Source: a virus
Strand: one strand, 5' to 3'
Length of the DNA: 27,551 nt
IMG/VR virus record: IMGVR_UViG_3300044953_000093
Location: 1-27,551 of that record
A program made the translations under genes and the position numbers. Below, piece by piece: positions 4,857 to 26,617 of this stretch (positions are counted from its first letter, which is position 1; every line of letters begins with the position of its first letter). The notes under the pieces are model-generated. The model was not told the origin of the DNA. It made no database searches and worked only from the letters and a program-made list of their open reading frames with translations.

Positions 4857-5533
4857 AGTATAGAATATACAATACACAATTGAATCCTGATATTTGGAAT
4901 GGTTTGGTCCTTAACAAAAAAGTTAAGGATAAATTGATTCAAGTTGCAAATGACTTTTATAAAGACACAGAATTAACCGCTCCAATAATTGATATTTTAT
5001 TTGTAGGCAGTTTAGCAAATTATAACTGGTCTAATTATAGTGATTTTGATCTTCATATTGTTATCAATTTTAAGAATGTAGACGACAACTCAGAATTGAT
5101 TGAAAAGTATGTAAATCAGTTAAAGTCTTCATGGAACAAGGATCATGATATTCATATAAATGGATATAACGTCGAGGTATTTATACAAGATGTAACCAAA
5201 CAAAACAGATCAAGTGGGGTTTATTCACTATTAACTGGGAACTGGATATCAAAACCAAAATACGAAAACTTTAGTGTGGATAATAATCTTATACAAAACA
5301 AATATAACGACGTGGTATATAAGATAAACTGTGCTATTAAAGAATCCAATTTAGAGTTATTAAAAACCACACTCAAAGATGTATATGATATGCGTCAAGC
5401 TGGATTAGATAGAGGTGGAGAATTAAGCACGGAAAACTTAGTATTTAAAATATTAAGAAGTAGAGGTCATTTAAAAAAACTCACAAACGCTATAACCTCT
5501 ACTTACGATAAACAAATTTCAATGGATAAATGA
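4853..5533 (+). CDS. Nucleotidyltransferase-fold protein (Pol beta/MNT type)
   Basis: 226 residues. The signature is FVGSLANYNWSNYSDFDLHI: Gly52-Ser53 followed by Asp64 and Asp66, with the likely third acidic residue Glu108 in NVEVFIQ. This is the catalytic layout of the Pol beta nucleotidyltransferase fold, which transfers an NMP to a protein, RNA or small molecule. A conserved-looking C-terminal helical block (DMRQAGLDRGGELSTENLVF) follows and resembles the same region in other T4-like phage copies. The target is unknown. Its ATG overlaps the HAD stop by four bases, so the two are probably made together. Its 3' end overlaps the convergent homing endonuclease by 15 bases. Confidence 0.8.
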   Translation: MKYRIYNTQLNPDIWNGLVLNKKVKDKLIQVANDFYKDTELTAPIIDILFVGSLANYNWSNYSDFDLHIVINFKNVDDNSELIEKYVNQLKSSWNKDHDIHINGYNVEVFIQDVTKQNRSSGVYSLLTGNWISKPKYENFSVDNNLIQNKYNDVVYKINCAIKESNLELLKTTLKDVYDMRQAGLDRGGELSTENLVFKILRSRGHLKKLTNAITSTYDKQISMDK

Positions 5534-7027
5534 TATAAAATATTTGGAATTGCCACAATCCCATATTCTATCATATCCGTTGTTTTTCATGTTTTCCCAT
5601 TCACTCAAGCTTGAGTCATATATTTTCAACAATTTACTCAACTTATGTTTTTGAAAACTCATTCTGTGACGCAAATCTTTATAATTATTAATAATATAGT
5701 AATAATTCATAGGTGTAAAGTCTACGAAGCTAAATCCTAGTTTTTCATATATCTTGCCACTGAAGTATCTTCTATCACTATATGTTACTATATTATTAGG
5801 ATTATAATTGTTTATGAAGCAACTAAACAGTTTGCTAGCAGAACCGTTAACTATAGTATTTATTTTGTTACAGAACCGCACCAATTCCCATTCGCTAGTG
5901 TTATCAAATCTTGAAGTTTTTCTAAAAGTCATTACACTCACAAGTTCGCCTTTGTTAAACAGACCAATCTTCACGGACGATTTATCTTCTCCTTGCAAAT
6001 GATTGTCATTTAAAAAAGAATTTTTCACTGATTCCTTTATTTCCGAAACCAGACAGTCCCTTCCATTTATTTTTGTTATATCAGATGAACAGTTAATAAA
6101 ATTTTTAATAATTGATTTTACAATTTCTTTTTTGTTAATCCATTCATTTTCAAATATATGAATCAAATGTATGCCATGATTCATACAACTCTTAGTTTTA
6201 TTAAGATGATAGTGTTTATTTATGCCGCCAGCATTTTCGCTGTGCCAATAAAGACCGTTGATTTCAATTGCAAAATTCTTTGACGGAACATAAAAATCCA
6301 GTTCTTTACCATTTAAAACAGTTCTGTCGTTTCTTTTGATAATTTCTTCTTTTTTAAGAACTTCAATCAAAAATTTATAAATTTCATTTTCTACGGTAGT
6401 AACCCTATCCGGATGACAATAATCACAAAAAATATTATTTAAGTTGTAAACAGTGCTTTCAAATGTTTTATTACAAACTTTACAGTTAAAATTATACTTA
6501 TTCGAAAAATGATAACCCTTATATTCATCGTATTCACATAACCACACCAAATTTGATTCTTCAAAATGTTTTTTCAAAAAAGCATAATGGTTTTCTTTCT
6601 TCGTATTTGAAGTTTGTTCCTTTACACTTTTGATTTTTTGTGAATTGTCAACTCCATATCGTTCAATCAATGTTGATTTTATTTTTTCCAAGTTTGTATA
6701 TTTTTCATCACCATATCTCTCAAACTTGGTTTTCTTTGCCTTTTCGTTATAATCACTATGTTTGCTATAATGTTCTACACCATATTTTTCCAATAAAGAT
6801 TTTTTAAGGTTTTCCTTGGTTTCAACTGTAGTCATTGGATGACCGCCATATTTCTCTAAACACGTTTGTTTTGTTTTGTTCACACGAAGTGCGTTAATAT
6901 CAACGTCATTTGTTGAACATTTTTTACTACAATATATCCTTTGACGAGAAACCCTACACTCAAATGACTTTTTACAAATTTTACATTCTACGTTCAACCA
7001 ACGCGAATTATCTCTTTTTCTTGGCAT
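5519..7027 (-). CDS. Homing endonuclease, Vsr-like, with zinc fingers
   Basis: 502 residues, opposite to the surrounding genes. Order of parts: an N-terminal Cys4 finger (CKIC at 15-18, then YCSKKCS); several degenerate EKYGxxx repeats between about residues 55 and 135, likely DNA-binding; a second Cys4 element (CKVC...CDYC, about 180-205); a nuclease core around ELDFYVPSKNFAIEINGLYW and LIHIFENEW, matching the Vsr-like (EDxHD-type) homing nuclease pattern; and a C-terminal acetyltransferase-like domain ending near WENMKNNGYDRIWDCGN. Such free-standing enzymes cut a related phage genome so their gene is copied into it. It looks intact. AAAGGA five bases before its ATG gives a good RBS on the minus strand. 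Its 3' end overlaps the nucleotidyltransferase gene. The target site is unknown, but the neighbouring tail tube gene is a natural candidate. Confidence 0.85.
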   Translation of the reverse strand: MPRKRDNSRWLNVECKICKKSFECRVSRQRIYCSKKCSTNDVDINALRVNKTKQTCLEKYGGHPMTTVETKENLKKSLLEKYGVEHYSKHSDYNEKAKKTKFERYGDEKYTNLEKIKSTLIERYGVDNSQKIKSVKEQTSNTKKENHYAFLKKHFEESNLVWLCEYDEYKGYHFSNKYNFNCKVCNKTFESTVYNLNNIFCDYCHPDRVTTVENEIYKFLIEVLKKEEIIKRNDRTVLNGKELDFYVPSKNFAIEINGLYWHSENAGGINKHYHLNKTKSCMNHGIHLIHIFENEWINKKEIVKSIIKNFINCSSDITKINGRDCLVSEIKESVKNSFLNDNHLQGEDKSSVKIGLFNKGELVSVMTFRKTSRFDNTSEWELVRFCNKINTIVNGSASKLFSCFINNYNPNNIVTYSDRRYFSGKIYEKLGFSFVDFTPMNYYYIINNYKDLRHRMSFQKHKLSKLLKIYDSSLSEWENMKNNGYDRIWDCGNSKYFISFIH

Positions 7028-7160: not shown

Positions 7161-7652
7161 ATGGCAGATCTACTAAATAGCAACGAAATATTTTTTACGA
7201 ATTTCGAAACAAAGACAAAGAACCGTTTCATTTTATATTGTGACGGTATTCCATCTTTTCTTGTAAGAAAAGTAAAGAGACCAACCGTTAAGAGCGAAAA
7301 GAAGACTCTTGACCACATCAACATCCAACGTTACTACAAGGGTAAAACCACTTGGGACGATATCACAATGGAATTGTATGACCCAATTGTTCCTTCCGGT
7401 GCTCAAGCAGTAATGGAATGGGTTCGTTTGAGTCACGAATCCGTGACTGGTCGTGATGGCTATTCGGACTTTTACAAAAAAGATTTAACCATCAACGTTC
7501 TCGGCCCCGTTGGCGACAAAGTTGAAGAATGGACACTCAAAGGCGCATTTATTACGCAAGCTGATTTTGGCGAAGGCGAATGGGCCGATAGCGGCGAGCC
7601 GCTCATAATTGGAGTCACACTCAGCGTAGACTATTGTATATTGCAGTTTTAA
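7161..7652 (+). CDS. gp19: Tail tube protein (T4 gp19-like)
   Basis: 163 residues, the same length as T4 gp19. The protein forms the hexameric rings of the inner tail tube through which DNA passes. Typical features of the family are the N-terminal NRFILYCDGIPSFLVRKVKR strand pair, the WDDITMELYDPI segment, MEWVRL and the C-terminal VTLSVDYCILQF strand. The gene stands alone, with a strong RBS in front and a terminator behind, as expected for a subunit needed in many copies. It is flanked by an intact homing endonuclease on the left and the ruin of another on the right. The 3' half (about 7500-7610) is visibly richer in G and C than its surroundings. Confidence 0.93.
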   Translation: MADLLNSNEIFFTNFETKTKNRFILYCDGIPSFLVRKVKRPTVKSEKKTLDHINIQRYYKGKTTWDDITMELYDPIVPSGAQAVMEWVRLSHESVTGRDGYSDFYKKDLTINVLGPVGDKVEEWTLKGAFITQADFGEGEWADSGEPLIIGVTLSVDYCILQF

Positions 7653-7883: not shown

Positions 7884-8292
7884 CAGGTCTTACATCAGGA
7901 CAAACGGCTAACTTGGTCGTTCCGACCATTAAATTATTCAATCCTTGTCTCAGTATATTTTGCGAGACATTCCAATCTCTATCCAATTTCTCTTAGCATC
8001 GGGGACAATCCCATTCTCGTTGGTCTAATGCCAGACCATCGTTAATGTATCCACAATGAGAGCAAGTCTTGGATGATGGAAAGTATCGGTCAATTTTAAC
8101 AAGTTTCCGTCCACACCAATCTGCTTTATAGGTTAGTTGTCTCACCAGTTCTCCCCAAGAAGCATCTCTAATGAATTTAGACAAATAATGATTTTTCATC
8201 ATATTCTTCACAGACAAATCTTCCAGACAGATTACTTGGTTTTCGTTAATCAGCTTGGATGTAATTTGATGAAGGTAATTATTACGAATGTT
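7822..8292 (-). mobile_element. Degraded IS200/IS605-type (TnpB) element
   Basis: About 470 bases between the two halves of a broken endonuclease-type gene. The minus strand encodes the C-terminal half of TnpB and ends at a hairpin (7828-7851) of the kind found at the right end of this insertion family. No TnpA (HUH) transposase gene, no N-terminal TnpB and no left end are present. This fits a 5' deletion that also took the middle of the host gene. The exact ends cannot be set from this sequence alone; these families leave no target duplication to guide the call. Confidence 0.7.
7828..7851 (-). repeat. Right-end hairpin of the IS200/IS605-type remnant
   Basis: An imperfect palindrome: ACCCA/TGGGT outer stem, one C-A mismatch, a CTGC/GCGG inner stem with one G-U pair, and a TTTA loop. 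It covers the TnpB stop codon and lies just before the junction with the endonuclease stub. In live elements this region is both the transposition end and the 3' part of the guide (omega) RNA scaffold. Confidence 0.6.
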
Positions 8293-8819: not shown

Positions 8820-9644
8820 ATGGATGATAATCTAATAGTTCCAATTTCAAGAAAATCAACTGGTTACTCTCAACCAAAAAAAGAAACAACGTATCCAACA
8901 GAGTTGATTGATTTACCAAGTGGTGGGTATTTTTATCAAACGGGTCACCCATTGAGTGAAGGTCATATTGAAATGAAGTTGATGACTGCGAAAGAAGAAG
9001 ACATTTTAATGAATCAAAATCTCATTAAAAAAGGAATTGTGTTGGATGCTCTTCTTGAAAGTTTAATCATCAATAAAAACATAAAATTGGACGACATTTT
9101 ATTGTGTGATAAAAATGCTTTATATATTGCTGCTCGACGATTGGCATATGGTGACGTATATGGTCCGTTAGATATCAAGTGTAATAAATGTGGAGAAAAA
9201 AACGATCCGTCTGCAAATTTGGGTGAAATCAAAATAAAAGAAATAGATTTTACAAAGTTTGTGAAGGGTGAAAATAAATTTGAATTTTTTCTTCCATATT
9301 CAAAGAAAACAATTACATTTAAATTATTAACTCATCTTGATGACCGAAAAGTTGATGTTGAATTAAAAACCGCTGCTAAATTATATAAAAACTCTAACTC
9401 ATCAGAATTAACTACCAGATTAAAATTTATAATTACATCCGTCGAAGGAAACACAGATACTGCTGAAATACGAAAATTTGTAGACAATGAACTCACTTCA
9501 AGGGATAGTTTGGCATTAAGAACATATATAAAAGAGATTACTCCTGATGTGGACTCTTCTTTCAATTTTACATGTGAACACTGTGGTCATGAAGAAAGGA
9601 TGGGTATACCGATTACGGTATCCTTTTTTTGGCCTAACACCTAA
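8820..9644 (+). CDS. gp26: Baseplate hub assembly protein (T4 gp26-like)
   Basis: 274 residues. The order of elements fits the T4 gp26 baseplate family: an N-terminal YPTELIDLPSGGYFY segment, an MTAKEEDILMNQNLIKKG helix, a zinc-binding pair with CNKC near residue 121 and CEHCGHEE near 251, and the ending IPITVSFFWPN. T4 gp26 is needed to assemble the baseplate hub; many phages carry an equivalent just before the tape measure gene. The two Cys pairs could share one zinc across the sequence. The ATG is preceded by AAGTT with no clear Shine-Dalgarno. The 3' end contains TTTTTTT (9624-9630) and overlaps another frame holding the next conserved small protein, suggesting a programmed frameshift. 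Confidence 0.85.
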   Translation: MDDNLIVPISRKSTGYSQPKKETTYPTELIDLPSGGYFYQTGHPLSEGHIEMKLMTAKEEDILMNQNLIKKGIVLDALLESLIINKNIKLDDILLCDKNALYIAARRLAYGDVYGPLDIKCNKCGEKNDPSANLGEIKIKEIDFTKFVKGENKFEFFLPYSKKTITFKLLTHLDDRKVDVELKTAAKLYKNSNSSELTTRLKFIITSVEGNTDTAEIRKFVDNELTSRDSLALRTYIKEITPDVDSSFNFTCEHCGHEERMGIPITVSFFWPNT

Positions 9645-15346: not shown

Positions 15347-17998
15347 ATGTCAGCCGAAAGACCATGGGAAGCAGGTCCATTTTCAAAATGGGTCATTGAA
15401 GAATTAAATAACAGAGTAAATAGTTTATCATTTGGTATAAATCAAACTCGCAGCGCAAATAATGGGATGGAATATGTCTCTGGGCCAAGAAGACATTGGA
15501 TCAGGGTTTTTTCAAATGGTGTCAATAAAAAAGCAGGCGAAGACAGTGAGGATAAGTGGGGATTGATTCTTAAAAGCCCGGACCGTTCACCTGACATATT
15601 TTCAAGCAGATACGGAATTTCTCCAGCGAACCAAATATATGGATACAATAATTGTAATGAGCCAAAATATATCCGTGAAAATCGATATAGAATAAATGTC
15701 CCCGAACCAGGAATCGTATCGTTTACTGTTGATGTTCAAAAAAATTTCTTTGCCACTGCAAAAATAAATTGGGTTTGTCATTCAATCGATCAACTCAATG
15801 CGATCACGCCTTATTTTTTGACTCCATTGACAACAGTATTTGTTGAGTGGGGATGGAACAATTTCGATCTTCAATCATTAATAAATTATAGATCCGTTGA
15901 TAATTTAAAAGAAATAGTAAATAATCATTTTAAACATTATGTTAATAAAGTTCCCCCTTCAAAAGGAAATTATGATTTTATAGTTGGTGACATAACAAAT
16001 TTTGAATACGGTTATGAGGATAATATTATCAAGGGATTCACCGAAATAAAATCGAGACAAATGTTATATAGCGGATATAATATCCGAGGCGAAAAACTCG
16101 TTAATACCGATGGCGCCGAATCGCCCGCATTAGGATTTAGAACTGTATATGAACAGGTATTGAATTCTTTGAAATATTATACCGATAATCAAACAAATAA
16201 ACCATCTTCGAATGATCCTAAGGGTTCCAATGATGAAGTTGAGATTCTTAAGAAAATGTTGCCGTCTAAAAAATATGGAAATGAGTTAGAAAATTTATCA
16301 GGTTATATATACAAATATGTAACCAAAGAAAAAACATCAGTGTCGGCAACTCAGGGCGGAAACAATCAAAATTTTTCATTATCGGACATTTACATTACTC
16401 TTGAATTATTTGTTGATATAATGAATTCTTTGAAAAATAAAAACGATGAAAACTCATTTCTTAAAAATTATTATGAAGTTGATGTTATAAATACTAAAGC
16501 GGGATATCATAAAAATTTGATTTCTACAACCAGAAATGTTTTGATTCCAAATCCGAATGCTCCTAAATTCAATGGTAAGGGTTCCTTGCCATATGGACAA
16601 TATAAAGATGAAAATACTACGTTTGTCGGAGATCAGATTTTTAGAAGTGAGTCAATACCTGTTCCTTTTTCACTCCCTACTCGCAAAGGACAATTTTTAG
16701 ATAATAAATCTATGAAAAAGGAAGAGATCAGTTCCAACATAAATTTAAATAATTACAAAACAAAGAAGCCAGATCCAAATATACAACTCAAATTGTTAGT
16801 ACAATACAATTCCGACGTAGTATATAGAAACGATTTGGATTTTGTTTTGAATAGATACGATCGATTTGCACCCCAAACCCAAACTAGAACAACAACAGCA
16901 TTTAATGAGGAGGGTTTATTAAAAAATGTATATATAAATTTAGAGTTTATAAGGGAATCAATTGTGGTTGATAAAGATATGATCGATATGAAATCGGTAT
17001 ACGATAAAATTTTAACCGAATTAAATGAGTCAGTATGTGATTTTTGGGGTCTTGAACTCGTAAATGTAGAACGTGCTGTCGTAAATGAAAACCCTAATGC
17101 TAACATATCGAATACGTCCGGAAGCAGATTGCAGATTACAGATATGAAATTCAGCCCATTAAATGTAAATAACCTCCTTGTCCACGAGATATTTACGTTT
17201 GATTATGGAAATAATAAATCGATAATAAAGAAAATAAATTTTACAACTTCTCTTACGAACGCAATGGCAAATCAAATATTGTATAGATCGTTTGGAGAAA
17301 CGTCTCTTTCATCAAATAATTTGTTAGATTTTTCACATGGAGACATGTATGTTGATAAAATAAAAGGTTCATATAGAAATGCGGCTCTCCGGCCGCCACC
17401 GTCGCAAACACTGCTTACTTTTTTGGATATAATTAAAAAATATTTAACTTTTGATCCGTCCGATCCAAACGCTAATTTTTTGATGCGGGTTCAAGTATTT
17501 CTCACTACTATTACTGATAAGAAGCGTCCCGGCGTTCGTATTCCGTCCAGTTTTTTTATTTTCCCGGAAGAGCTCGTGGCCGGCCTGTTCAATTTCCGCA
17601 CCGAAACCTTAGGGCCGCCGAAACCTGAAGAATTTACACAATGGAATATTGTTGATCTGTGTATACCTGATAAAGAAGCACTTGTATATTTATTGAATGA
17701 CAATGACAAAAAGAACAATACAAATGTGTATTGTGCTCCTATAAGAAACGTAGAAATAGAAATTTCGTTGATGGGCATTGCGGGCATACAAGTATTTCAA
17801 TATTTTAAAATACGAAACCTACCTCCACCTTTTACAGACGATGTTGTCGTGTTTCAAGTCAGAGATGTAAATCATACGGTTGATGAAAATGGATGGGAAA
17901 CCAGAATTAAAGCATCATTACGGCCCGCTTATAATTTATCTAGTACATTATTTGAGGGCGATGTGATTATTAACCCAACGGTTCAAAACTTGGCATGA
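15347..17998 (+). CDS. Large baseplate hub-like structural protein
   Basis: 883 residues. The N-terminal half has segments such as PRRHWIRVFSNGVNKKAGED and ITPYFLTPLTTVFVEWGWNN. The C-terminal part contains VEIEISLMGIAGIQVFQYFK, LPPPFTDDVVVFQVRDVNHT and VDENGWETRIKASLRPAYNL, resembling the beta-barrel ending of hub proteins of the gp27/VgrG-like class. In those proteins a GxxGI strand, an FxVxxVxH strand and a GWxTxI strand close the barrel. Position after the tape measure and gp53-like genes agrees. A GC-rich patch (about 17385-17410 and 17520-17630) breaks the otherwise AT-rich gene and encodes a Pro-rich stretch. The stop overlaps the next start (ATGA). Structural role is confident; gp27 equivalence is tentative. 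Confidence 0.75.
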   Translation: MSAERPWEAGPFSKWVIEELNNRVNSLSFGINQTRSANNGMEYVSGPRRHWIRVFSNGVNKKAGEDSEDKWGLILKSPDRSPDIFSSRYGISPANQIYGYNNCNEPKYIRENRYRINVPEPGIVSFTVDVQKNFFATAKINWVCHSIDQLNAITPYFLTPLTTVFVEWGWNNFDLQSLINYRSVDNLKEIVNNHFKHYVNKVPPSKGNYDFIVGDITNFEYGYEDNIIKGFTEIKSRQMLYSGYNIRGEKLVNTDGAESPALGFRTVYEQVLNSLKYYTDNQTNKPSSNDPKGSNDEVEILKKMLPSKKYGNELENLSGYIYKYVTKEKTSVSATQGGNNQNFSLSDIYITLELFVDIMNSLKNKNDENSFLKNYYEVDVINTKAGYHKNLISTTRNVLIPNPNAPKFNGKGSLPYGQYKDENTTFVGDQIFRSESIPVPFSLPTRKGQFLDNKSMKKEEISSNINLNNYKTKKPDPNIQLKLLVQYNSDVVYRNDLDFVLNRYDRFAPQTQTRTTTAFNEEGLLKNVYINLEFIRESIVVDKDMIDMKSVYDKILTELNESVCDFWGLELVNVERAVVNENPNANISNTSGSRLQITDMKFSPLNVNNLLVHEIFTFDYGNNKSIIKKINFTTSLTNAMANQILYRSFGETSLSSNNLLDFSHGDMYVDKIKGSYRNAALRPPPSQTLLTFLDIIKKYLTFDPSDPNANFLMRVQVFLTTITDKKRPGVRIPSSFFIFPEELVAGLFNFRTETLGPPKPEEFTQWNIVDLCIPDKEALVYLLNDNDKKNNTNVYCAPIRNVEIEISLMGIAGIQVFQYFKIRNLPPPFTDDVVVFQVRDVNHTVDENGWETRIKASLRPAYNLSSTLFEGDVIINPTVQNLA

Positions 17999-18375
17999 TA
18001 CAATATCCTGACAATAAAAGAAATATAAGATATCCTGAAATACAAACAGCGTATCCTGTATATAATAAAGTATCTCCACAACAAAGTGATTATGAATCTG
18101 GATATATCGATAGATATTTTGTTAAACGTGCGAACGACGTGTCAATATATGAAACGTCGAAAGATAATTATTTTGATATTTCTTCTAGATTATATATAAA
18201 AATTGTTATAAAGTGGAAATTGACGGGTAAAAGAAATGACATTTATCAAAACGGTATAAAAACGTATGAGGGCGTATACGAATATAACAAGAATCAAATA
18301 AATATTTATAAGAAAGTTGTGGTTGGTTTGGAAAATATTTTACGTGACCCTCTTGAATTTTGGAAACCAAGTTAA
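17995..18375 (+). CDS. Small conserved phage structural protein
   Basis: 126 residues. RYFVKRANDVSIYETSKDNY, YIKIVIKWKLTGKRNDI and the ending GLENILRDPLEFWKPS match the style of a small conserved protein found next to baseplate or neck genes in T4-like phages. It is probably a single beta-rich domain. Its function is not known to me. It is translationally coupled to the hub-like gene by a four-base overlap and ends the tail operon. Confidence 0.75.
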   Translation: MIQYPDNKRNIRYPEIQTAYPVYNKVSPQQSDYESGYIDRYFVKRANDVSIYETSKDNYFDISSRLYIKIVIKWKLTGKRNDIYQNGIKTYEGVYEYNKNQINIYKKVVVGLENILRDPLEFWKPS

Positions 18376-18411: not shown

Positions 18412-19764
18412 ATGGTTATAAAGTCAGAGTCAGATTATAGACTTTTTCTACAAAATAATAAAGATAACGATTTGATTTGCGATGCGGTGCAGGTCGATGA
18501 ACGACTTCACCCATGCGTGTCAGACGTAAGTTTATTATTTGTATATAATGTCCAAAAGCAATCAACATATGTGATTTCGGTAAATCACCGTGATTGTGTT
18601 TTCAAGATACAAAAAGACCAATTAATCGAAAATTTTAAAAATTTTACCGGAAAAATTTGGGTTTTTGACAAAAAGAAGTTTCATCATCTTTTGCCGATTG
18701 GTCGTTTAAATGATATAAATATTATATTTTTTATTTCTGATGGTAAGGTAGAAGATTATTCTGAATGTGATACAAAGACACATTCTTTTTATAAACAAAA
18801 ATACAACGGTTATTCGAATGTAAATAATGTAATCCCACTGACCATTCATCTTGAGAAATTTGAGACAATGTGCGTGGGATCCTTAAAAAGAATTAGAAAT
18901 ATAAGGCTGGATCAGAGTTTTAAGGAGTTGAATGGAACTATAACTGAAAATTTAGGTATTCTTGAGAAAAACGGATTGAAAGTTGATGTGGATACTTTTA
19001 ATCATTTTTTCGGAGACAAGAATGTCAAAATTGTTGATGGGTATGTATATACGCAATACAATCTTTATACATCCACGGGAAGACCAAGTAATAGGTTTGG
19101 AAATGTAAATTACAGCGCTTTAAATAAGGAAAATGGATGTCGTAACAGCTTTGTAAGTAGACATGGTAAGGATGGTATGTTGTTTATGATTGATTATAGT
19201 GCGTATCATCCACATTTGGTTGCGCAGTTAATAAATTACGATCTACCGTCTAATGCATATGAGTATCTTGGAGGATATTATTACAATAAACAAGAATTAT
19301 CTTCAGACGAGATAAAAACCGCTAAGAATATAACATTTCAATGTATGTATGGTAATATACCCGACGAATTGAAAGAAATACCTTATTTTAAGAAAATAAA
19401 TGAGTATATTACTCATAGATGGAATTTTTTCAATCAATATAGGTATGTTGAAACACCTGTATTTAAGAGACAAATTACAAAAAATCATATATATGATCCA
19501 AACCCAAATAAATTGTTCAATTATATATTGCAGGCAAGTGAAACTGAATTTGGAATCTATTCTCTCGCATCTATAAATGAATTCTTAAGAGATAGAAAAA
19601 CTAAGGCAATTTTGTATACATACGATAGTATTTTATTTGATGTCCACAAAGAAGACAAAAAACAAACACTAGTTCATATCAAAAATTTAATGGAAAACGG
19701 GAAATTTCCAACAAAGTGTTATATCGGAAATAGTTATAACGAAATGACAATCATACATCTATGA
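18412..19764 (+). CDS. Short divergent family A DNA polymerase
   Basis: 450 residues. Polymerase motifs in order: YTSTGRPSNRFGNVNYSALN (the T-GR element, about 220-238); motif A MIDYSAYHPHLVAQL with Asp261; motif B as AKNITFQCMYG with Lys305, Tyr313 and Gly314; motif C as YTYDSILFD with Asp405. In place of the classical DYSxIELR, motif A has AYHPH, so the usual Glu is missing. The first 170 residues may be a worn 3'-5' exonuclease domain but lack clear catalytic acids. The protein would copy DNA, but its length is about half that of Pol I. T4 uses a family B replicase, so this is either a replacement or an auxiliary enzyme. The gene has its own sigma70-like promoter and follows the tail operon. 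The start is the only ATG before the conserved core. Confidence 0.75.
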   Translation: MVIKSESDYRLFLQNNKDNDLICDAVQVDERLHPCVSDVSLLFVYNVQKQSTYVISVNHRDCVFKIQKDQLIENFKNFTGKIWVFDKKKFHHLLPIGRLNDINIIFFISDGKVEDYSECDTKTHSFYKQKYNGYSNVNNVIPLTIHLEKFETMCVGSLKRIRNIRLDQSFKELNGTITENLGILEKNGLKVDVDTFNHFFGDKNVKIVDGYVYTQYNLYTSTGRPSNRFGNVNYSALNKENGCRNSFVSRHGKDGMLFMIDYSAYHPHLVAQLINYDLPSNAYEYLGGYYYNKQELSSDEIKTAKNITFQCMYGNIPDELKEIPYFKKINEYITHRWNFFNQYRYVETPVFKRQITKNHIYDPNPNKLFNYILQASETEFGIYSLASINEFLRDRKTKAILYTYDSILFDVHKEDKKQTLVHIKNLMENGKFPTKCYIGNSYNEMTIIHL

Positions 19765-19810: not shown

Positions 19811-20962
19811 ATGTTAACCGTAGAAGATGTATTACAAGAATACTTTTTAAATAGAAAAGACGGAGGTTCTGGCTTTAATGTCAAATCTCAAAAAGATTTA
19901 TATCACTTTGAATCGTTCCTAATAAAGAATGGTTATATTCAAATGTTTGATCGTAAAAAGTTAAATGAGTTATTTGAAGCCGACGATATTCCACAAGAGT
20001 CTTCTACAGAAGAACTTGTAAATTATGTTAAAAAAAGATACGTTACTTTCTTTAAAACACAACCTTCCGCACAAGATTTGGAATCGCTTGTTAATTATGT
20101 GCGTGAATTTAGAAAAACCAATCAATCTATTGAATCGGCTTTTCAGTTTTTAAAACAAAATCCTGCATTGGTTGTATACGAAAAAAATCAAATAGGTCAA
20201 GGAGAATTTGCTTTTTATTTATTATTGCCTGAGGCAAGGAAAATTGCTGGTGATAAAGGAGATATCTGGGTCGGTGATAAAAAATACGAAATCAAAAAAC
20301 TCAAAAAAGCCAAAGATACCATTAGATTCGGAACCAATATTGATTTAGATGCGATCAATTCTTTTAGATATGTGACTTTCGGTCTTAAGAAATTATTTAC
20401 TTCTAAAGAATATAAAGACGGTGAAAAGATAAAAGAAATGTCAAGTGCATATGATAAATTGATGGATGGATCAGAAGCGTCAGTGGCTGTAAATAAGTTG
20501 AATGCTTTCTATAAATTCATAGATCTATTGCGTGACTATGTGATTTTTGAAAAAACCCAAAAGAGTTTATCATCTGAAAAAACGGCAGGTAAGAATTTCA
20601 TTTTTAAAGCAAATGATGTTGATAAAGATGTATTTTTTAAGATTTCATTTGATGATCTCAAAAACGCATTAAAATCTGGAAAACAACAAACTACTGTAGA
20701 AAAAACAGAGGATAAACAAGATACCGAAGAACTAACATCATTCGCTGAAGAGGTTCAATCTATTTTGAATGGATTCTTAAATAAGTATCCAACTTCCGAA
20801 ACATTTCAAACGCAAATGGTTGCGCAATTGTATGAAAAATATAGAAGTGTGGGCGTTCATATAATGATCATTAATGAAAAAAATGAATTCTTGATAGATC
20901 CACCTAATTTTAAATTTAATGCAATAAATCAATTTGTAAGACCACAAGTCACCCTAGGTTAA
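19811..20962 (+). CDS. Unknown phage protein with internal-protein-like N-terminus and possible PD-(D/E)XK core
   Basis: 383 residues. MLTVEDVLQE at the start has the length and pattern of T4 capsid-targeting peptides (hydrophobic residue at 8, Glu at 10, L-x-E). The middle has GQGEFAFYLLLPEA with Glu132, then GDIWVGDKKYEIKK with Asp151 and Glu160-x-Lys162, a spacing like the E...D...ExK active site of PD-(D/E)XK nucleases. The rest is charged and helical, with a Thr/Glu/Lys-rich linker near 295-310. I infer a packaged or head-associated nuclease-like protein, but neither cleavage nor activity is shown by the sequence. TTTACA and TATACT spaced by 18 bases precede the ATG very closely. No Shine-Dalgarno. 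One base separates it from the next gene. Confidence 0.65.
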   Translation: MLTVEDVLQEYFLNRKDGGSGFNVKSQKDLYHFESFLIKNGYIQMFDRKKLNELFEADDIPQESSTEELVNYVKKRYVTFFKTQPSAQDLESLVNYVREFRKTNQSIESAFQFLKQNPALVVYEKNQIGQGEFAFYLLLPEARKIAGDKGDIWVGDKKYEIKKLKKAKDTIRFGTNIDLDAINSFRYVTFGLKKLFTSKEYKDGEKIKEMSSAYDKLMDGSEASVAVNKLNAFYKFIDLLRDYVIFEKTQKSLSSEKTAGKNFIFKANDVDKDVFFKISFDDLKNALKSGKQQTTVEKTEDKQDTEELTSFAEEVQSILNGFLNKYPTSETFQTQMVAQLYEKYRSVGVHIMIINEKNEFLIDPPNFKFNAINQFVRPQVTLG

Positions 20963-20963
20963 T

Positions 20964-21578
20964 ATGAATATACTATCAGATTTAATAGAAAGAGTTTGTC
21001 TTGATTCTCGCATAGATGACGGGATTTTTTCTTTGGAGAATAATCAACACTTGAACATTCTACAAGAATATCTCCAATCTGAATTTAACATAAATGAAGA
21101 ACAATCAATTGAATTAAGAAATGCTATTGTAGAAGGAAAATATCCTGACCGTCAAGCATATAATACAAATGGATTGCTTGTTACATTTCCTACATCTGAA
21201 TATAAACAAAGAGCGATTGCGAGAGGAACTCATTTTGAGGAAAATCCAAAGAAGGCTGCTGATGCAAATATTTTTGATCCTCAACAAGAACAACCATCTG
21301 CACAACAACCTCCCGTGGAACCTCAACCAACAACATCTGAACCAGAAGCTCCTTCCGAAAAAGACAAAGATGAGCCTGATTTGAGAACGCCAACTGAAAA
21401 ACAATCTGATGCTCAAGTAACTCAAAAGATTTTGACCACCGAATTCACGTTGGACGAGGCAAAATCTAATGGTTTTTATAATAAAGGATATGTTTGGTAT
21501 ACAAATGAAGGGGACGAAGTTGGAATTGCAAGATATGTTGAGGACTTGGGCAAAATAATCATACGTCCTAAAAAATGA
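20964..21578 (+). CDS. Conserved phage protein of unknown function with Pro-rich linker
   Basis: 204 residues. The first 90 residues (MNILSDLIERVCLDSRIDDG, then the EGKYPDRQAYNTNGLLVTFP and RGTHFEENPKKA segments) are of a kind common in environmental T4-like phages. A Pro/Gln/Glu/Ser-rich linker from about 98 to 145 is probably disordered. A short C-terminal domain (EAKSNGFYNKGYVWYTNEGD to the end) looks beta-rich. I cannot assign a function; its place beside the head-protein-like gene may mean a virion role. The next gene's ATG overlaps its stop by four bases. Confidence 0.75.
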   Translation: MNILSDLIERVCLDSRIDDGIFSLENNQHLNILQEYLQSEFNINEEQSIELRNAIVEGKYPDRQAYNTNGLLVTFPTSEYKQRAIARGTHFEENPKKAADANIFDPQQEQPSAQQPPVEPQPTTSEPEAPSEKDKDEPDLRTPTEKQSDAQVTQKILTTEFTLDEAKSNGFYNKGYVWYTNEGDEVGIARYVEDLGKIIIRPKK

Positions 21579-21964
21579 AAAAACAATTACTTTGCACATT
21601 TTCAACTATTTACGAATATAAATCGTCAATTGACAAACTCAGAAAATTTTATCAGGTTCAAAATAAACTTTTTTTATTTACTGATGTTAAAAACTCAAAG
21701 AGTGTTTTTATAACATATAATATTGAAGTATCAGATTCTGCACAATTTCCAAAATTTCCGAATACTATTGGTCTTCATAGGAAAAAACAAACCAACACGT
21801 TGTATACGTTGAATGCTATGAATAGACTGATAATGGAAGAGAATAATGGAGTATTCGATAATAAGTTTCAATTAAATTGGGAATTATATAATAACTGTCT
21901 TATTTTAACTGGTGAAGTTTCCGTTAAAATAATATCACTGAAACTTTTTGATATAATAAGTTGA
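21575..21964 (+). CDS. Conserved small phage protein of unknown function
   Basis: 129 residues. The beta-rich start (KQLLCTFSTIYEY), the middle FPKFPNTIGLHRKKQTNTLY and the ending with NWELYNNCLILTGE resemble a short hypothetical protein seen near gp32 or structural genes in many T4-like phages. No catalytic motif or membrane segment is visible. It is coupled to the preceding gene by ATGA. The gp32 promoter begins in its last codons. Confidence 0.75.
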   Translation: MKKQLLCTFSTIYEYKSSIDKLRKFYQVQNKLFLFTDVKNSKSVFITYNIEVSDSAQFPKFPNTIGLHRKKQTNTLYTLNAMNRLIMEENNGVFDNKFQLNWELYNNCLILTGEVSVKIISLKLFDIIS

Positions 21965-22073: not shown

Positions 22074-22889
22074 ATGGCATTAGATATATCTAAGATTAAG
22101 AATCGTTTGAATTCTTTAACAAACACAAATCAAAAATCAAACTTGCTTTGGAAACCCAACCCTGGGAAGCAAGTAGTTCGTATCGTTCCCTACAAGTATG
22201 CTCCTGAGAATCCTTTTATTGAGTTGAAGTTTCACTACAACATCAATGACAAGACATACCTCTCACCTGACAGTTTTAACCGTCCAGATCCTATCGTCGA
22301 GTTTTCAAATCGTATGAAGAAAACTGGAAATAAGGAAGATTGGCAGATGGGACGTAAAATGGAACCAAAGATGAGAACTTATGTTCCAGTAATTGTCCGT
22401 GGCGAAGAAGACCAAGGCGTTCGTTTCTGGGGATTCGGAAAGAATGTATATCAAGAACTTCTATCAATCATCAGTGATGCTGATTATGGTGATATTACTG
22501 ATCCTGTAAATGGACGTGATATTGTTGTAGAATTCAGAACCGCTGAAGAATCTGGTAAGAGTTTTCCAGAAACTACCATCCGTGTCAAACCAAACACTTC
22601 CCTAGCAATTGAACCTGCTAAAAAGGATCTTCTTGGAAAACAAACAAATATTCTCGATTTGTTCCCAGAATTGACATATGAACAACTCAAGTCCGTCATG
22701 GACGCTTGGTTGAATCCAGAAACCGCAACTGAACCAGTTGTAAATGCGGTTTCAGATGAAGATGGAGACGTAGAAGCAGAATCTGCTGCTTCGGCTACAC
22801 CTTCTTCAAATAAATCGCCATCCGCAACTACAAGTAAAGCAAATACAGAAGACCTAACAAAGGTTTTTGATAATTTGTTTAACAGTTAA
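22074..22889 (+). CDS. gp32: Single-stranded DNA-binding protein (gp32-like)
   Basis: 271 residues. The basic N-terminal arm (MALDISKIKNRLNSL) is of the kind that mediates cooperative binding. The OB-fold core runs through LLWKPNPGKQVVRIVPYKYA, IELKFHYNI, TYVPVIVRGEE and VRFWGFGKNVYQELL. The C-terminus is acidic and then Ser/Thr/Ala-rich, ending in DLTKVFDNLF, the kind of tail that contacts replication and recombination partners. The protein contains no cysteine, so the zinc-binding site of T4 gp32 is missing. The role is to coat single strands during replication, recombination and repair. It has its own promoter and a structured leader and is followed by a hairpin that could attenuate transcription into uvsX. 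Start choice: the only ATG before the conserved arm. Confidence 0.9.
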   Translation: MALDISKIKNRLNSLTNTNQKSNLLWKPNPGKQVVRIVPYKYAPENPFIELKFHYNINDKTYLSPDSFNRPDPIVEFSNRMKKTGNKEDWQMGRKMEPKMRTYVPVIVRGEEDQGVRFWGFGKNVYQELLSIISDADYGDITDPVNGRDIVVEFRTAEESGKSFPETTIRVKPNTSLAIEPAKKDLLGKQTNILDLFPELTYEQLKSVMDAWLNPETATEPVVNAVSDEDGDVEAESAASATPSSNKSPSATTSKANTEDLTKVFDNLFNS

Positions 22890-22952: not shown

Positions 22953-24101
22953 ATGAAAAAGAAAACACATGTTACGCAGAATGATTCCCCACAAAGAGAC
23001 GAATTAGTTGAATTGTTGGCGAATGAATTGAATAAAGCAAATAAAGACGGTGGAAAAATTGCTTATTTCTTAGATGAACAAGAAAACCCTGCCGAAATTA
23101 GTGACTGGATTAGCACAGGTTCTTCTATTCTTGATTTGGCAATTAGTAACCGTCCACACGGTGGATTACCAGTCGGTAAAATGGTAGAATTAAACGGTTT
23201 GGAAGGAACCGGTAAGAGTCTAGTATCCGCACATATTTGTGCTGAAACTCAACGTAAGGGTGGGATCGCAGTTGTATTAGATACCGAAAACGCTGCCGCT
23301 CCAGAATTCTGGAAAAGCTTAGGTGTAGATTTAAAGAATCTTCTATATGTCCAAATTGACACTGTAGAAGATATTTTTGAAAAGATGGAACAAATGATTG
23401 GTATAGTGAGAAAGTCTAACAAGGATCGTATTCTTACGCTCATTGTTGATTCTGTAGCAGCAGCATCAACCAAGACTGAATTGGAAAGTGATCATGGTAA
23501 AGATGGTTATGCGACTGGTAAGAGCATCATTATCAGCAAGGCAATGCGCAAGATTACCATCATGCTTGGTAAGCAAAAGGTTCTCATCGTGTTTACCAAC
23601 CAACTGCGTCAGAATTTGAATGCTATGGCATTCGGAGACAAGTACGTGGTCAGTGGTGGTAAGGCACTTGCTTATCATTGCAGCGTTCGTGTGCGTTTGA
23701 ACAACAATGGCAAGCTCAAGAAAGGTGAATCAATCATCGGAAATGAGTGTAAGGCAGTAGTTGTAAAAAACAGAATGGGTCCGCCGCAGCGACAAGCTAA
23801 CTTTGACATCTACTTTGACAGCGGTATTGCTGATTATAGCAGCTGGATTAAAGTATTGAAGGAAAATAACATCATCAAACAAGGTGGTGCTTATTATACC
23901 TATAAAAAAGACGATGGCAGCGAATGGAAGTTCCAATCCAAGGACTTTGTAGCAACAATGCAGAATGATGTATCTCTCAAAGAAGAAGTTTATTTGAAGA
24001 TCTGTGATTCTGTTATTATGAAATATAAAGATCCTAATAGTCAAATTGTTGATGGCGTTGTAGTTGATACTGACGAAGAATCCGCTAGAAGTGAAGAATG
24101 A
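22953..24101 (+). CDS. uvsX: Recombinase UvsX (RecA family)
   Basis: 382 residues. Walker A is GLEGTGKS (residues 82-89), followed by VVLDTENAAAPEFW with the catalytic Glu region; Walker B is LTLIVDSVAA with Asp166. Later, VFTNQLRQNLNAMAFGDKYV and SGGKALAYHCSVRVRL match the RecA/UvsX L2 and core region. It forms filaments on single strands coated by gp32 and carries out strand invasion for recombination-dependent replication and repair. The acidic ending (TDEESARSEE) is typical. The start follows a T-rich stretch with no Shine-Dalgarno. The stop overlaps the start of the exonuclease gene by four bases. Confidence 0.93.
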   Translation: MKKKTHVTQNDSPQRDELVELLANELNKANKDGGKIAYFLDEQENPAEISDWISTGSSILDLAISNRPHGGLPVGKMVELNGLEGTGKSLVSAHICAETQRKGGIAVVLDTENAAAPEFWKSLGVDLKNLLYVQIDTVEDIFEKMEQMIGIVRKSNKDRILTLIVDSVAAASTKTELESDHGKDGYATGKSIIISKAMRKITIMLGKQKVLIVFTNQLRQNLNAMAFGDKYVVSGGKALAYHCSVRVRLNNNGKLKKGESIIGNECKAVVVKNRMGPPQRQANFDIYFDSGIADYSSWIKVLKENNIIKQGGAYYTYKKDDGSEWKFQSKDFVATMQNDVSLKEEVYLKICDSVIMKYKDPNSQIVDGVVVDTDEESARSEE

Positions 24102-25165
24102 GCAATTTGACTGACAGTGAGAAGAAAAAGTTGTTTAGTCTGTTCAATCATATCAAACCAACTGACCGAATTGAGGGTCTTAATCGGACCCTCGATTCGG
24201 ACGTTCTTATTATAGATTTCATGAATACTTTCATAAGAGCATTCATGGCAAGTCCATCATTAAACGCAAACGGAAACCACACGGGCGGTATTGCCGGATG
24301 TTTAAAGAGCATGGGATATGCAGTTAAATTGTTGAATCCAACAAGAATAATTGTTGTATCTGATGGTAATGGTGGCAGTATGAAACGTCGAAAAATCTAT
24401 CCACAGTATAAAAGTGGCAGAAAAACAAAAATAAGACTGAATAGAACTTATGAAGAGTTAAGTAATCCAGATTCCGAAGAAAAGAATCTAAAGATACAAT
24501 TAATCAAAACTGTAAAGTATTTGGATACGTTACCCGTTACAACAATGGCAATTGACCATATTGAAGCGGATGACACTATCGCATATCTTGCTACTCAATA
24601 TTTCAAAAATAGTAATGTTACTATTATGAGTGCTGATAAAGATTTCTTACAGTTAGCAAATGATAGAGTTAAAATTTGGAGTCCAACCAAAAAGAAATTA
24701 TATGGTTGTGCTGAGATATTGACTGAATACGGTATTAGTTGCAGTAACTTTTTGAACTATCGTATTATGGAAGGCGATGATAGTGATAACATTGATGGTA
24801 TTAATGGTGCTGGGTTAAAGACCATAATCAAATGTTTTCCTATTTTCACTGATGCAAATCAATATTCTCTACAAGAAATATACAATTATAGTGATACACA
24901 TAAAGGTAAATATAAACTATACAATACTATATTAGATAACAAAAACATAATGGAACGTAACTGGCAATTAATACAGTTACATGACACACAGATACAATCG
25001 TTTAGCCAACTCAGAATCAATGAGATTCTTGAGAAACCTCTGACTAAACTTGACAGATACAACTTCAGCAAATTGTTGTTGGAGGATAATATGCAGAATA
25101 ACTTTCCAACTAGCATGATTTGGTTACAAGAAGTATTCGGCAAGGTAAATTCATTTGTGGCGTAA
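24098..25165 (+). CDS. rnh: RNase H / 5'-3' exonuclease (FEN family, T4 rnh-like)
   Basis: 355 residues. The metal-binding sites of the FEN family appear in order: LIIDFMNTFIRAF, VVSDGNGGSMKRRKIYPQYK, IDHIEADDTIAYLA, IMSADKDFLQLA and YRIMEGDDSDNIDGINGAG. The last is the helix-hairpin-helix (H3TH) that grips duplex DNA. The enzyme removes RNA primers and flaps during lagging-strand synthesis. It is coupled to uvsX by ATGA. Length is slightly above that of T4 RNase H (about 305 residues). Confidence 0.9.
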   Translation: MSNLTDSEKKKLFSLFNHIKPTDRIEGLNRTLDSDVLIIDFMNTFIRAFMASPSLNANGNHTGGIAGCLKSMGYAVKLLNPTRIIVVSDGNGGSMKRRKIYPQYKSGRKTKIRLNRTYEELSNPDSEEKNLKIQLIKTVKYLDTLPVTTMAIDHIEADDTIAYLATQYFKNSNVTIMSADKDFLQLANDRVKIWSPTKKKLYGCAEILTEYGISCSNFLNYRIMEGDDSDNIDGINGAGLKTIIKCFPIFTDANQYSLQEIYNYSDTHKGKYKLYNTILDNKNIMERNWQLIQLHDTQIQSFSQLRINEILEKPLTKLDRYNFSKLLLEDNMQNNFPTSMIWLQEVFGKVNSFVA

Positions 25166-25228: not shown

Positions 25229-26617
25229 ATGAGCGAAATATATATTATAGATAATTTAAAGAAGTTTGGACCCGAGTTCCAAACCAAGTGCATCTCTGCA
25301 CTTGTAAGTGATAAAACATTCATTGAACGTATTAGCGATATTATTGAACCGCAATCGTTTGCGACAGATGCACATCAATTTATTGTAAAGGAAACAATAA
25401 ATTATTTCCTACACTATAAGGAACTGCCAACACTGGCAGTATTTAAAGTCAAAGTTGATAGTATTGAAAATGAACTGTTAAAGAAAACAGTCGTGGATCA
25501 ACTTAGACTTGTATATCAGAAGATCACTGATAATGATTTGAAATTTATTAAAGAGCAATTTCTCGAATTCTGTAAGAATCAGAAGTTGAAGAATGCTATT
25601 ATGGAAAGTGTTGATCATTTGAAGAATGGTCAATATGATAAAATTAAACACGTTGTAGATATCGCAATGAAGGCTGGTATGGAACGTAATATCGGTCATG
25701 AATATGATGTGGATATCGAAAAACGTATGAGTATGATGGCTCGTAAAACAACCAAGACCAACTGGACTGAAATTGACACTATTATGGATGGTGGATTGGC
25801 CGCTGGAGAGCTTGGAATTATTACGGCTTGTGCAGGTAGTGGTAAGAGTTGGGTTCTTGCTAAACTTGGTGCAGAAGCAATGAGACAAGGTAAGAATGTA
25901 TTACATTATACTCTTGAGTTAAATGAAAATTATGTGGGTCTACGTTATGACGCATGTTTTACTGGAATTGATTTCCAAAATATTCGTAATAACATTGATA
26001 CCGTAAAGAAAAAGATTTCTGAAGTTCCCGGCAAACTTATCATTAAGTATTTCCCAATCAAAACTGTGTCCGCTCATAGTTTGAAACTTCATGCAGAACG
26101 TATCCAAACCTTGGGAACAAAAGTAGATATGATTGTAGTCGATTATGCTGATATTTTACGTCCATCACAAAGTGAACGTAATAGTAACAGTTATAGTGAG
26201 GCTGGTGGCATCTATGAAGAACTTCGTGGTGTTGCCGGCGAACTTCAGATTCCAATTTGGACTGCAAGTCAAAGCAATAGAGCAGCTATGGATGAAGATA
26301 TTATTCAGGCAAATAACATCTCAGATAGTTATCGTAAAATCATGACTGCTGACTTTGTTATGTCACTTAGTCGTAAAGTAAATGACAAGGTAAGTAATAC
26401 CGCACGATTCCACATCATCAAAAACCGATTTGGCCCTGATGGATTCACATTCCCAAGTAGAATGAATGCCGGTTGTGGTGATATCCAGATATTCGCTGAG
26501 AATAGTAGAGAAGGTGTGGGAATCATCAATGAAATGAATCAAGGCGAAACTCTTGTTAAGAAAATGATGTCTGGAAAATGGAATGCACATATGAATGAGG
26601 AAGAAGATTCCGAATAA
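25229..26617 (+). CDS. gp41: Replicative DNA helicase (T4 gp41-like, DnaB family)
   Basis: 462 residues. The N-terminal helical domain (about 1-150) is of the kind that contacts primase. The RecA-like motor follows: LAAGELGIITACAGSGKSWV with Walker A near 200-207, VLHYTLELNENYVGLRYDAC, Walker B in MIVVDYADILRPS, an IPIWTASQSNRAA segment and MSLSRKVNDKVSNTARFHII with the likely arginine finger. It is a ring helicase that moves 5' to 3' on the lagging-strand template and opens the fork. The ending is acidic (NEEEDSE). A helicase loader (gp59) and primase (gp61) are not in this window. The start ATG follows AAAATT with no Shine-Dalgarno. Confidence 0.92.
   Translation: MSEIYIIDNLKKFGPEFQTKCISALVSDKTFIERISDIIEPQSFATDAHQFIVKETINYFLHYKELPTLAVFKVKVDSIENELLKKTVVDQLRLVYQKITDNDLKFIKEQFLEFCKNQKLKNAIMESVDHLKNGQYDKIKHVVDIAMKAGMERNIGHEYDVDIEKRMSMMARKTTKTNWTEIDTIMDGGLAAGELGIITACAGSGKSWVLAKLGAEAMRQGKNVLHYTLELNENYVGLRYDACFTGIDFQNIRNNIDTVKKKISEVPGKLIIKYFPIKTVSAHSLKLHAERIQTLGTKVDMIVVDYADILRPSQSERNSNSYSEAGGIYEELRGVAGELQIPIWTASQSNRAAMDEDIIQANNISDSYRKIMTADFVMSLSRKVNDKVSNTARFHIIKNRFGPDGFTFPSRMNAGCGDIQIFAENSREGVGIINEMNQGETLVKKMMSGKWNAHMNEEEDSE

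Follow-up and report, generated by a model that had tools for sequence, protein, structure and literature searches.

A divPolA1 family A DNA polymerase with histidine at the steric-gate position in a replication gene block of a T4-like phage

The window, by which we mean the whole stretch of 27,551 nucleotides analysed here, contains an open reading frame at 18412-19764 that begins with ATG, ends with TGA and encodes 450 amino acids. The initial annotation had taken its product for a small polymerase of family A and the phage for a T4-like one, and this reading holds: the product is matched by Pfam PF00476 DNA_pol_A (E 1.4e-9, above the curated cut-off) and by PHROG 17 'DNA polymerase' (E 1.8e-12), its predicted fold is that of Pol I, and T4-like virion genes lie upstream (Pfam T4_baseplate at 8820-9644, E 1.2e-13, and gp19 at 7161-7652, below the cut-off). 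Downstream, the polymerase gene is followed by genes for proteins of 383, 204 and 129 amino acids, a single-strand DNA binding protein (SSB), a UvsX/RecA-like recombinase, a 5'-3' exonuclease, a helicase and the start of the ribonucleotide reductase large subunit. The features are as follows, all on the plus strand, with Klenow residue numbers that we take to be the equivalents.

17995 to 18375, plus: 126-amino-acid gene, function unassigned, upstream of the polymerase; present in 108 of 145 testable loci and also in LR756508
18412 to 19764, plus: divPolA1, 450-amino-acid family A DNA polymerase, probably accessory (Pfam, PHROG, AlphaFold model, VIA-align, hhalign)
18412 to 18900, plus: 3'-5' exonuclease-like domain at the N-terminus, about residues 1-163, with most catalytic acids gone (structural alignment to Bst Pol I; conserved columns)
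18973 to 19083, plus: thumb stub, G188 to R224 (invariant columns)
19192 to 19215, plus: motif A, DYSAYHPH, D261 to H268; the H266 codon, CAT at 19207-19209, is at the Klenow E710 position
19324 to 19353, plus: motif B, K305 to G314 (K305, F309, Y313-G314), Klenow K758, F762 and Y766 positions kept; the R754 position is I301
19615 to 19629, plus: motif C, YTYDS (Y402-T-Y-D405-S); D405 is at the Klenow D882 position and S406 at the E883 position
19811 to 20962, plus: 383-amino-acid gene, function unassigned, between divPolA1 and SSB; not widely kept (11 of 135 testable loci)
21575 to 21964, plus: 129-amino-acid orphan protein accompanying divPolA1; present in all 135 loci with 3 kb downstream
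22074 to 22889, plus: gp32-like single-strand DNA binding protein (Pfam gp32, E 6.3e-14); 126 of 126 testable loci
22953 to 24101, plus: UvsX/RecA-like recombinase (Pfam RecA, E 1.8e-53; PHROG UvsX-like, E 7.9e-72)
24098 to 25165, plus: 5'-3' exonuclease of the Pol I N-terminal/FEN type (Pfam 5_3_exonuc_N, E 4.8e-29)
25229 to 26617, plus: DnaB-like replicative helicase (PHROG 19, E 1.3e-74); 67 of 67 testable loci

Two minus-strand frames were also seen in the window. One, at 7993-8217 (74 amino acids), matches the domain TNB known from TnpB/Cas12f-like proteins (E 7.7e-17); it lies between tail genes and is possibly what is left of a transposon gene. The other, at 5519-7027, encodes a 502-residue protein matching DUF7487 (E 6e-21) among plus-strand genes, and our guess is that it is perhaps a mobile endonuclease-like insertion.

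An AlphaFold model of the polymerase built with 56 aligned sequences had a mean pLDDT of 93.2 and a pTM of 0.89, and the best solved structures found with it by Foldseek were Klenow fragment and Pol theta. VIA-align superposed residues 1-446 on residues 302-876 of the Bst Pol I large fragment (Z 27.5, rmsd 3.7, 413 of 450 residues aligned), a superposition that gives residue ranges and not residue pairs. The register within the active site comes from hhalign against six regular PolAs (98.3% probability, E 1.2e-14), which placed DYSAYH under the DYSQIE of bacterial Pol I without a gap; phmmer gave the same register to Klenow, in a match that taken alone is not significant (E 0.17). Motifs A, B and C, which had been called recognisable, could thus be located at D261, K305-G314 and D405 on a chain that aligns along Bst Pol I, and by these range-level and register comparisons they do not fall off the Pol I palm. 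The catalytic aspartates D261 and D405 are present in 150 of 150 readable divPolA1 sequences. A palm of the T4 gp43 (family B) type was not indicated, as both profile and fold place the protein in family A; on the same grounds we set aside a likeness of DYSAYHP to motif A of family B. We conclude that the protein is, with near certainty, a family A polymerase and a member of divPolA1.

The gene family has been known as divPolA1 since 2024, when Yutin et al. named it (PMC11348598), and in the literature searched the name was found only in that paper and its preprint. In the text on this family, they describe an extra polymerase with conserved catalytic residues, a truncated thumb and an exonuclease inactivated by replacement of all three of its aspartates; they read it as active in polymerisation but dead as an exonuclease and as encoded beside replication genes, suggest that it has a part in replication itself, and give a range of 155-190 kb for the phages that carry it (PMC11348598). 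Among 50,697 phage records, the best matches to the window's protein (40 of the 314 matching records listed) were four of Flavobacterium phage immuto, the uncultured 484-kb LR756508 and Microcystis phage Mel-JY01. The immuto protein is 28.5% identical over 92% of the query (E 4e-49), LR756508 38% over 68% and Mel-JY01 27% over 88%. In a quick tree of 70 rows, a check that the initial annotation had proposed, all 20 divPolA1 rows, the window's and immuto's among them, lay on one side of a branch with a long stem (SH-aLRT 100), facing 50 regular PolAs; motif A columns were left in and some rows have long branches.

The window's protein thus agrees with divPolA1 as described in that paper in its homology to the named immuto protein, degenerate exonuclease, truncated thumb and retained catalytic residues, and likewise in having replication genes downstream and in occurring, in its relatives, beside another DNA polymerase. 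Our set is larger than the published one and adds LR756508, an unannotated record whose length exceeds the published range, and Mel-JY01 (PP395634.1), of which we found no mention in the literature searched. The Mel-JY01 protein is annotated as hypothetical and is missed by Pfam DNA_pol_A at E 0.01, so database counts of divPolA1 are probably low. Contigs with divPolA1 also occur in five bacterial metagenome bins (Flavobacteriales, Winogradskyella, Flavobacteriaceae, Rickettsiaceae and one unnamed), where they are probably binned phage DNA.

To describe conservation we used 169 loci collected by four scans and from annotated records, without refetched duplicates, loci identical to L020 and the fragment L028. 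They yield 150 distinct proteins which with the window make 151 rows; near-identical sequences remain among the 150, and the locus counts include near copies. Confirmed relatives in the scans numbered 336, 591 and 588, of which the 80 best were read each time, so that the counts describe the best-scoring members and the most distant ones stand outside them. No scan pattern covered motif A.

In all 150 readable rows the Klenow E710 position, H266 in the window, is occupied by His, as invariant as the catalytic aspartates; the remaining row is a fragment that lacks the region. His was likewise found in all 54 readable sequences of a set of 57 chosen through the 129-amino-acid neighbour gene, on contigs that are partly the same. 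Regular PolAs gave a different result. Glu stood at this position in every one of 80 relatives of the immuto replicase and in 86 of 86 readable members of 87 more diverse viral PolA loci, both sets chosen without motif A. The second of these combines a scan on motif B alone with a scan using a Twort-like PolA; three contigs occur twice in it, and Glu was read by script in 84 cases and by eye in two (L470, L482), the last sequence (L450) being incomplete. A further set, with Glu in 80 of 80, was kept out of the counts since motif A, Glu included, was part of one of the two patterns used to collect it. Among five bacterial PolA loci, Glu was present in the four that matched the motif search. Four of the 87 regular viral PolAs (L419, L453, L469, L472) have an apparent intein at motif A, with Glu after it as judged by eye.

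The initial annotation had described motif A as altered in its whole AYHPH stretch. The Glu to His change at the fifth position after the aspartate stands; the 'PH' that follows is ordinary, since the regular PolA of immuto has DYTSLEPH. E710 and Y766 have been called universally conserved in family A, and mutation of E710 to alanine in Klenow causes a loss of fidelity (PMC4882331). The residue has been tied to the exclusion of ribonucleotides (PMC9324360), and the steric-gate Glu has been studied by mutation, for example to alanine (PMC4882331, PMC9324360); entries for Bst E658A, the same Glu to Ala exchange, are in the PDB and were among our structural matches. The Glu typical of family A is thus replaced throughout the clade while profile and fold remain those of family A, and the departure bears on the universality of the Glu and not on kinship. 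We found no description of His at the steric gate of a family A polymerase in the literature searched. The main text of PMC11348598, to which our search of that paper was confined, has no mention of steric gate, histidine, glutamate or E710; Fig. 5 of the paper may nevertheless show the change.

An enzyme with altered sugar or base preference had been among the initial suggestions. Nothing was found in favour of an altered base preference. The suggestion about sugar becomes sharper, as the changed residue is the steric gate itself. His at the gate probably still blocks the sugar by size, and as it removes a negative charge the exclusion of ribonucleotides may be weaker. The stronger proposal, that divPolA1 inserts ribonucleotides through the changed gate and so makes primers or extends RNA, draws on the fact that precisely the residue tied to ribonucleotide exclusion (PMC9324360) has become His in every readable row. 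It seems to us improbable. His is bulky and the gate may still close, and its partner Y313 is invariant. Single-subunit RNA polymerases have a small residue at the E710 position where divPolA1 has His. In addition, profile searches gave a Toprim primase match elsewhere in four of seven records, passing the cut-off in immuto, G010 and G011 and falling short of it in Mel-JY01, with no match in the other three, so that priming by divPolA1 would not be needed there. We consider it similarly improbable that the gate has been rebuilt around His so as to accept ribonucleotides or RNA primer ends as its normal substrate, with the 129-amino-acid protein as a partner that replaces the thumb.

The initial annotation had noted the lack of clear exonuclease acids, and this is borne out, with the qualification that one frequent acid is left. 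H33, H59 and K88 of the N-terminal domain occur without exception in the rows that cover them and K87 (K or R) and D101 in most, while the exo II and III acids could not be recognised in the alignment of 151 divPolA1 rows. Residue 24 is often acidic (Glu in 106 and Asp in 26 of the 151 rows) and may or may not be the equivalent of Klenow D355, the equivalences in this domain being drawn from sequence and not from residue-level superposition. The thumb is reduced to a stub: between landmarks common to divPolA1 and bacterial Pol I there are 36 residues in place of 125 (G214 to R339 in the latter), and about 90 are absent.

Within the palm and fingers some positions have changed and others are fixed. 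At the E883 position 138 of 150 rows have Ser and the other 12 Ala, and Ser is also found there in a Twort-like PolA (VHDS). At the R754 position of motif B there is Tyr in 80, Ile in 53, Val in six, Leu in six and Arg in only four of 151 rows, with Lys common one residue further on; the replacement by Tyr, Ile, Val or Leu in 145 of the 151 may mean that activity is low. The putative H734 position is occupied by His in 81 rows and by Tyr in 68 of the 151. The D705, R668, K758 and D882 positions (D261, R224, K305 and D405) are constant in 150 of 150 readable rows, and the Y766 and Q849 positions (Y313 and Q374) in 151 of 151. These patterns bear on whether divPolA1 is catalytically dead, or nearly so, and serves as a DNA-binding scaffold for SSB, nuclease and helicase. 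A thumb that is mostly gone and an R754 position no longer kept would agree with a scaffold; the catalytic aspartates and the R668, K758, Y766 and Q849 positions, on the other hand, are invariant down to about 27% identity to the window's protein, which argues against a dead enzyme that would have no need of them, and we regard the scaffold as very unlikely.

The genes downstream form a conserved block. All 67 loci with 7.4 kb downstream keep the order seen in the window, 42 with a UvsX match and 25 without one. In immuto, divPolA1 lies at 1-1326; two hypothetical genes come next, then those for SSB, recombinase, 5'-3' exonuclease and helicase. In LR756508 (L057, 226336-257259) the divPolA1-SSB-UvsX-nuclease-helicase block is also present. 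The 5' nuclease was found in 85 of 86 testable loci, and nine acids, picked according to the motifs of FEN-type nucleases, are invariant in 95 of 95 distinct nuclease sequences. A UvsX match was found in 75 of 102 testable loci, a count that is too low because immuto was missed although a recombinase is annotated there.

Since the block also holds recombination genes, recombination-linked synthesis fits it as well, and divPolA1 could be a recombination or translesion polymerase that extends D-loops made by UvsX or bypasses lesions through an open active site. The UvsX/RecA and gp32 genes downstream in the window, the thumb stub and the want of recognisable proofreading acids are consistent with this, as is the fidelity defect of Klenow with alanine at E710 (PMC4882331). 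The association with UvsX is less constant than that with the 5' nuclease (75 of 102 against 85 of 86 loci, divergent recombinases being missed in the former), and we hold this role to be possible but doubtful.

A constant companion of divPolA1 is the 129-amino-acid orphan protein, which is encoded in 159 of the 169 loci. In the 50,697 phage records it occurs in only six, and these are the six best divPolA1 matches (among the 40 of 314 divPolA1 records listed). Conversely, 80 loci were found through the 129-residue protein, and of the 46 with at least 4.5 kb upstream 43 have divPolA1 and three, on short contigs, gave none by tblastn or profile. In immuto its counterpart of 151 amino acids is encoded immediately after the 441-residue divPolA1, and in the window two genes intervene. 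The protein has a conserved HRKK..NTLYT.NALN stretch and a confident model (pLDDT 94.1), for which Foldseek gave no match at E 0.001 and the best VIA score (Z 4.8) lies in the noise. The 129-residue protein of the window has no Pfam or PHROG match, and weak matches of single family members (best 0.0017) were taken as chance. The section on two novel PolAs and the discussion of PMC11348598 do not mention such a partner. Our guess is that it may be an accessory subunit of divPolA1.

The initial annotation had also offered divPolA1 as the main replicase. Its place in a core replication block with SSB and helicase would suit that function, and no other polymerase was found among the proteins scanned in the window, which makes up a complete virus record but is a 27,551-base fragment of a genome. 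Searches of relatives' records with PolA, PolB and PolC profiles point the other way: 12 of 22, including all five longer than 150 kb, carry another DNA polymerase gene, the other ten being fragments of 24-120 kb in which absence is not informative. In immuto the second polymerase is a 777-residue family A enzyme encoded elsewhere in the genome. A PolB match was found in eleven records (G001, G002, G004, Mel-JY01, G010, G011, G013, G014, G015, G019 and LR756508), two of which (G002 and G004) have identical divPolA1 sequences and are not independent; in G001, whose divPolA1 is 72% identical to that of the window, an 851-residue PolB frame lies about 44 kb away. With hardly any thumb and no recognisable proofreading acids, divPolA1 would in any case be an odd replicase, and we discarded this function as highly improbable. 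A family C companion was likewise rejected, as 21 records gave no PolC match and LR756508, the one that did, has PolB matches too.

Some of the PolB matches were irregular. In G010, G011, G014 and G019 the match is on a shorter frame (556-587 amino acids), with one internal TGA in G019, and in LR756508 it extends over two frames of 1022 and 625 amino acids. In G014, G019 and LR756508 a second frame matches the later part of the PolB profile, as if the gene were split, and the PolB genes of all five records may be split.

Building on the observed homology, range of fold, conservation and gene order, we infer a role for divPolA1, along with its activity, partners and sugar selectivity. The reading that we prefer, and to which we give about an even chance, is that divPolA1 is an extra family A polymerase beside a separate replicase, and that with the 5' nuclease it makes up a split Pol I for gap filling. 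The palm-fingers active site would be complete, the 3'-5' exonuclease domain is degenerate and the thumb nearly absent, and an enzyme so built should be distributive and lack proofreading. The 5' nuclease would remove RNA primers or flaps and divPolA1 would fill the short gaps left in lagging-strand maturation and recombination repair, so that the two together would restore the primer removal and gap filling that bacterial Pol I performs in one chain; the 129-amino-acid protein could serve as accessory subunit. H266, about as bulky as Glu, could still hydrogen-bond to the invariant Y313, and we would thus expect a DNA polymerase whose exclusion of ribonucleotides is altered and probably weaker. 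That the replicase family varies while the block stays fits a job independent of the replicase. Gene neighbourhood alone does not prove that divPolA1 and the nuclease act jointly. Of the functions proposed in the initial annotation, gap filling fits best, with repair included.

In comparison with the Pol I large fragment (Klenow, Bst, Taq), divPolA1 shares the whole-chain fold, motifs A, B and C, the catalytic aspartates and the R668, K758, F762, Y766 and Q849 positions. It differs in having the 5' nuclease as a separate gene of the block, in the large loss of exonuclease acids and of some 90 thumb residues, and in the exchanges of E710 for His, E883 for Ser or Ala and R754 mostly for Tyr or Ile. 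The Tt72 phage PolA, as described in PMC9324360, likewise has Ser at the E883 position; unlike divPolA1, it retains the Glu of E710 and proofreads strongly. DpoZ of vibriophage phiVC8 is, according to PMC8599892, also a phage family A enzyme in which an otherwise strictly conserved gate residue has changed (Tyr to Phe in helix O); divPolA1, by contrast, keeps the Tyr and changes the Glu, and DpoZ has an exonuclease catalytic site (PMC8599892). Neither the invariant gate His, in the literature searched, nor the 129-amino-acid neighbour, in the sections of the divPolA1 paper named above, was found in print.

Were ribonucleotides or RNA primer ends indeed a normal substrate, divPolA1 would be a case in which a whole lineage has naturally left the Glu-Tyr gate that family A DNA polymerases share. 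A large natural lineage with the gate fixed as His means that natural enzymes can be used to test the need for Glu against the need for bulk in sugar selection, and the constant 129-amino-acid neighbour is a lead for an accessory factor. With the polymerase and the Pol I-type 5' nuclease encoded together in a conserved block, these phages, which differ in replicase family, would offer a simple system in which to follow lagging-strand maturation.
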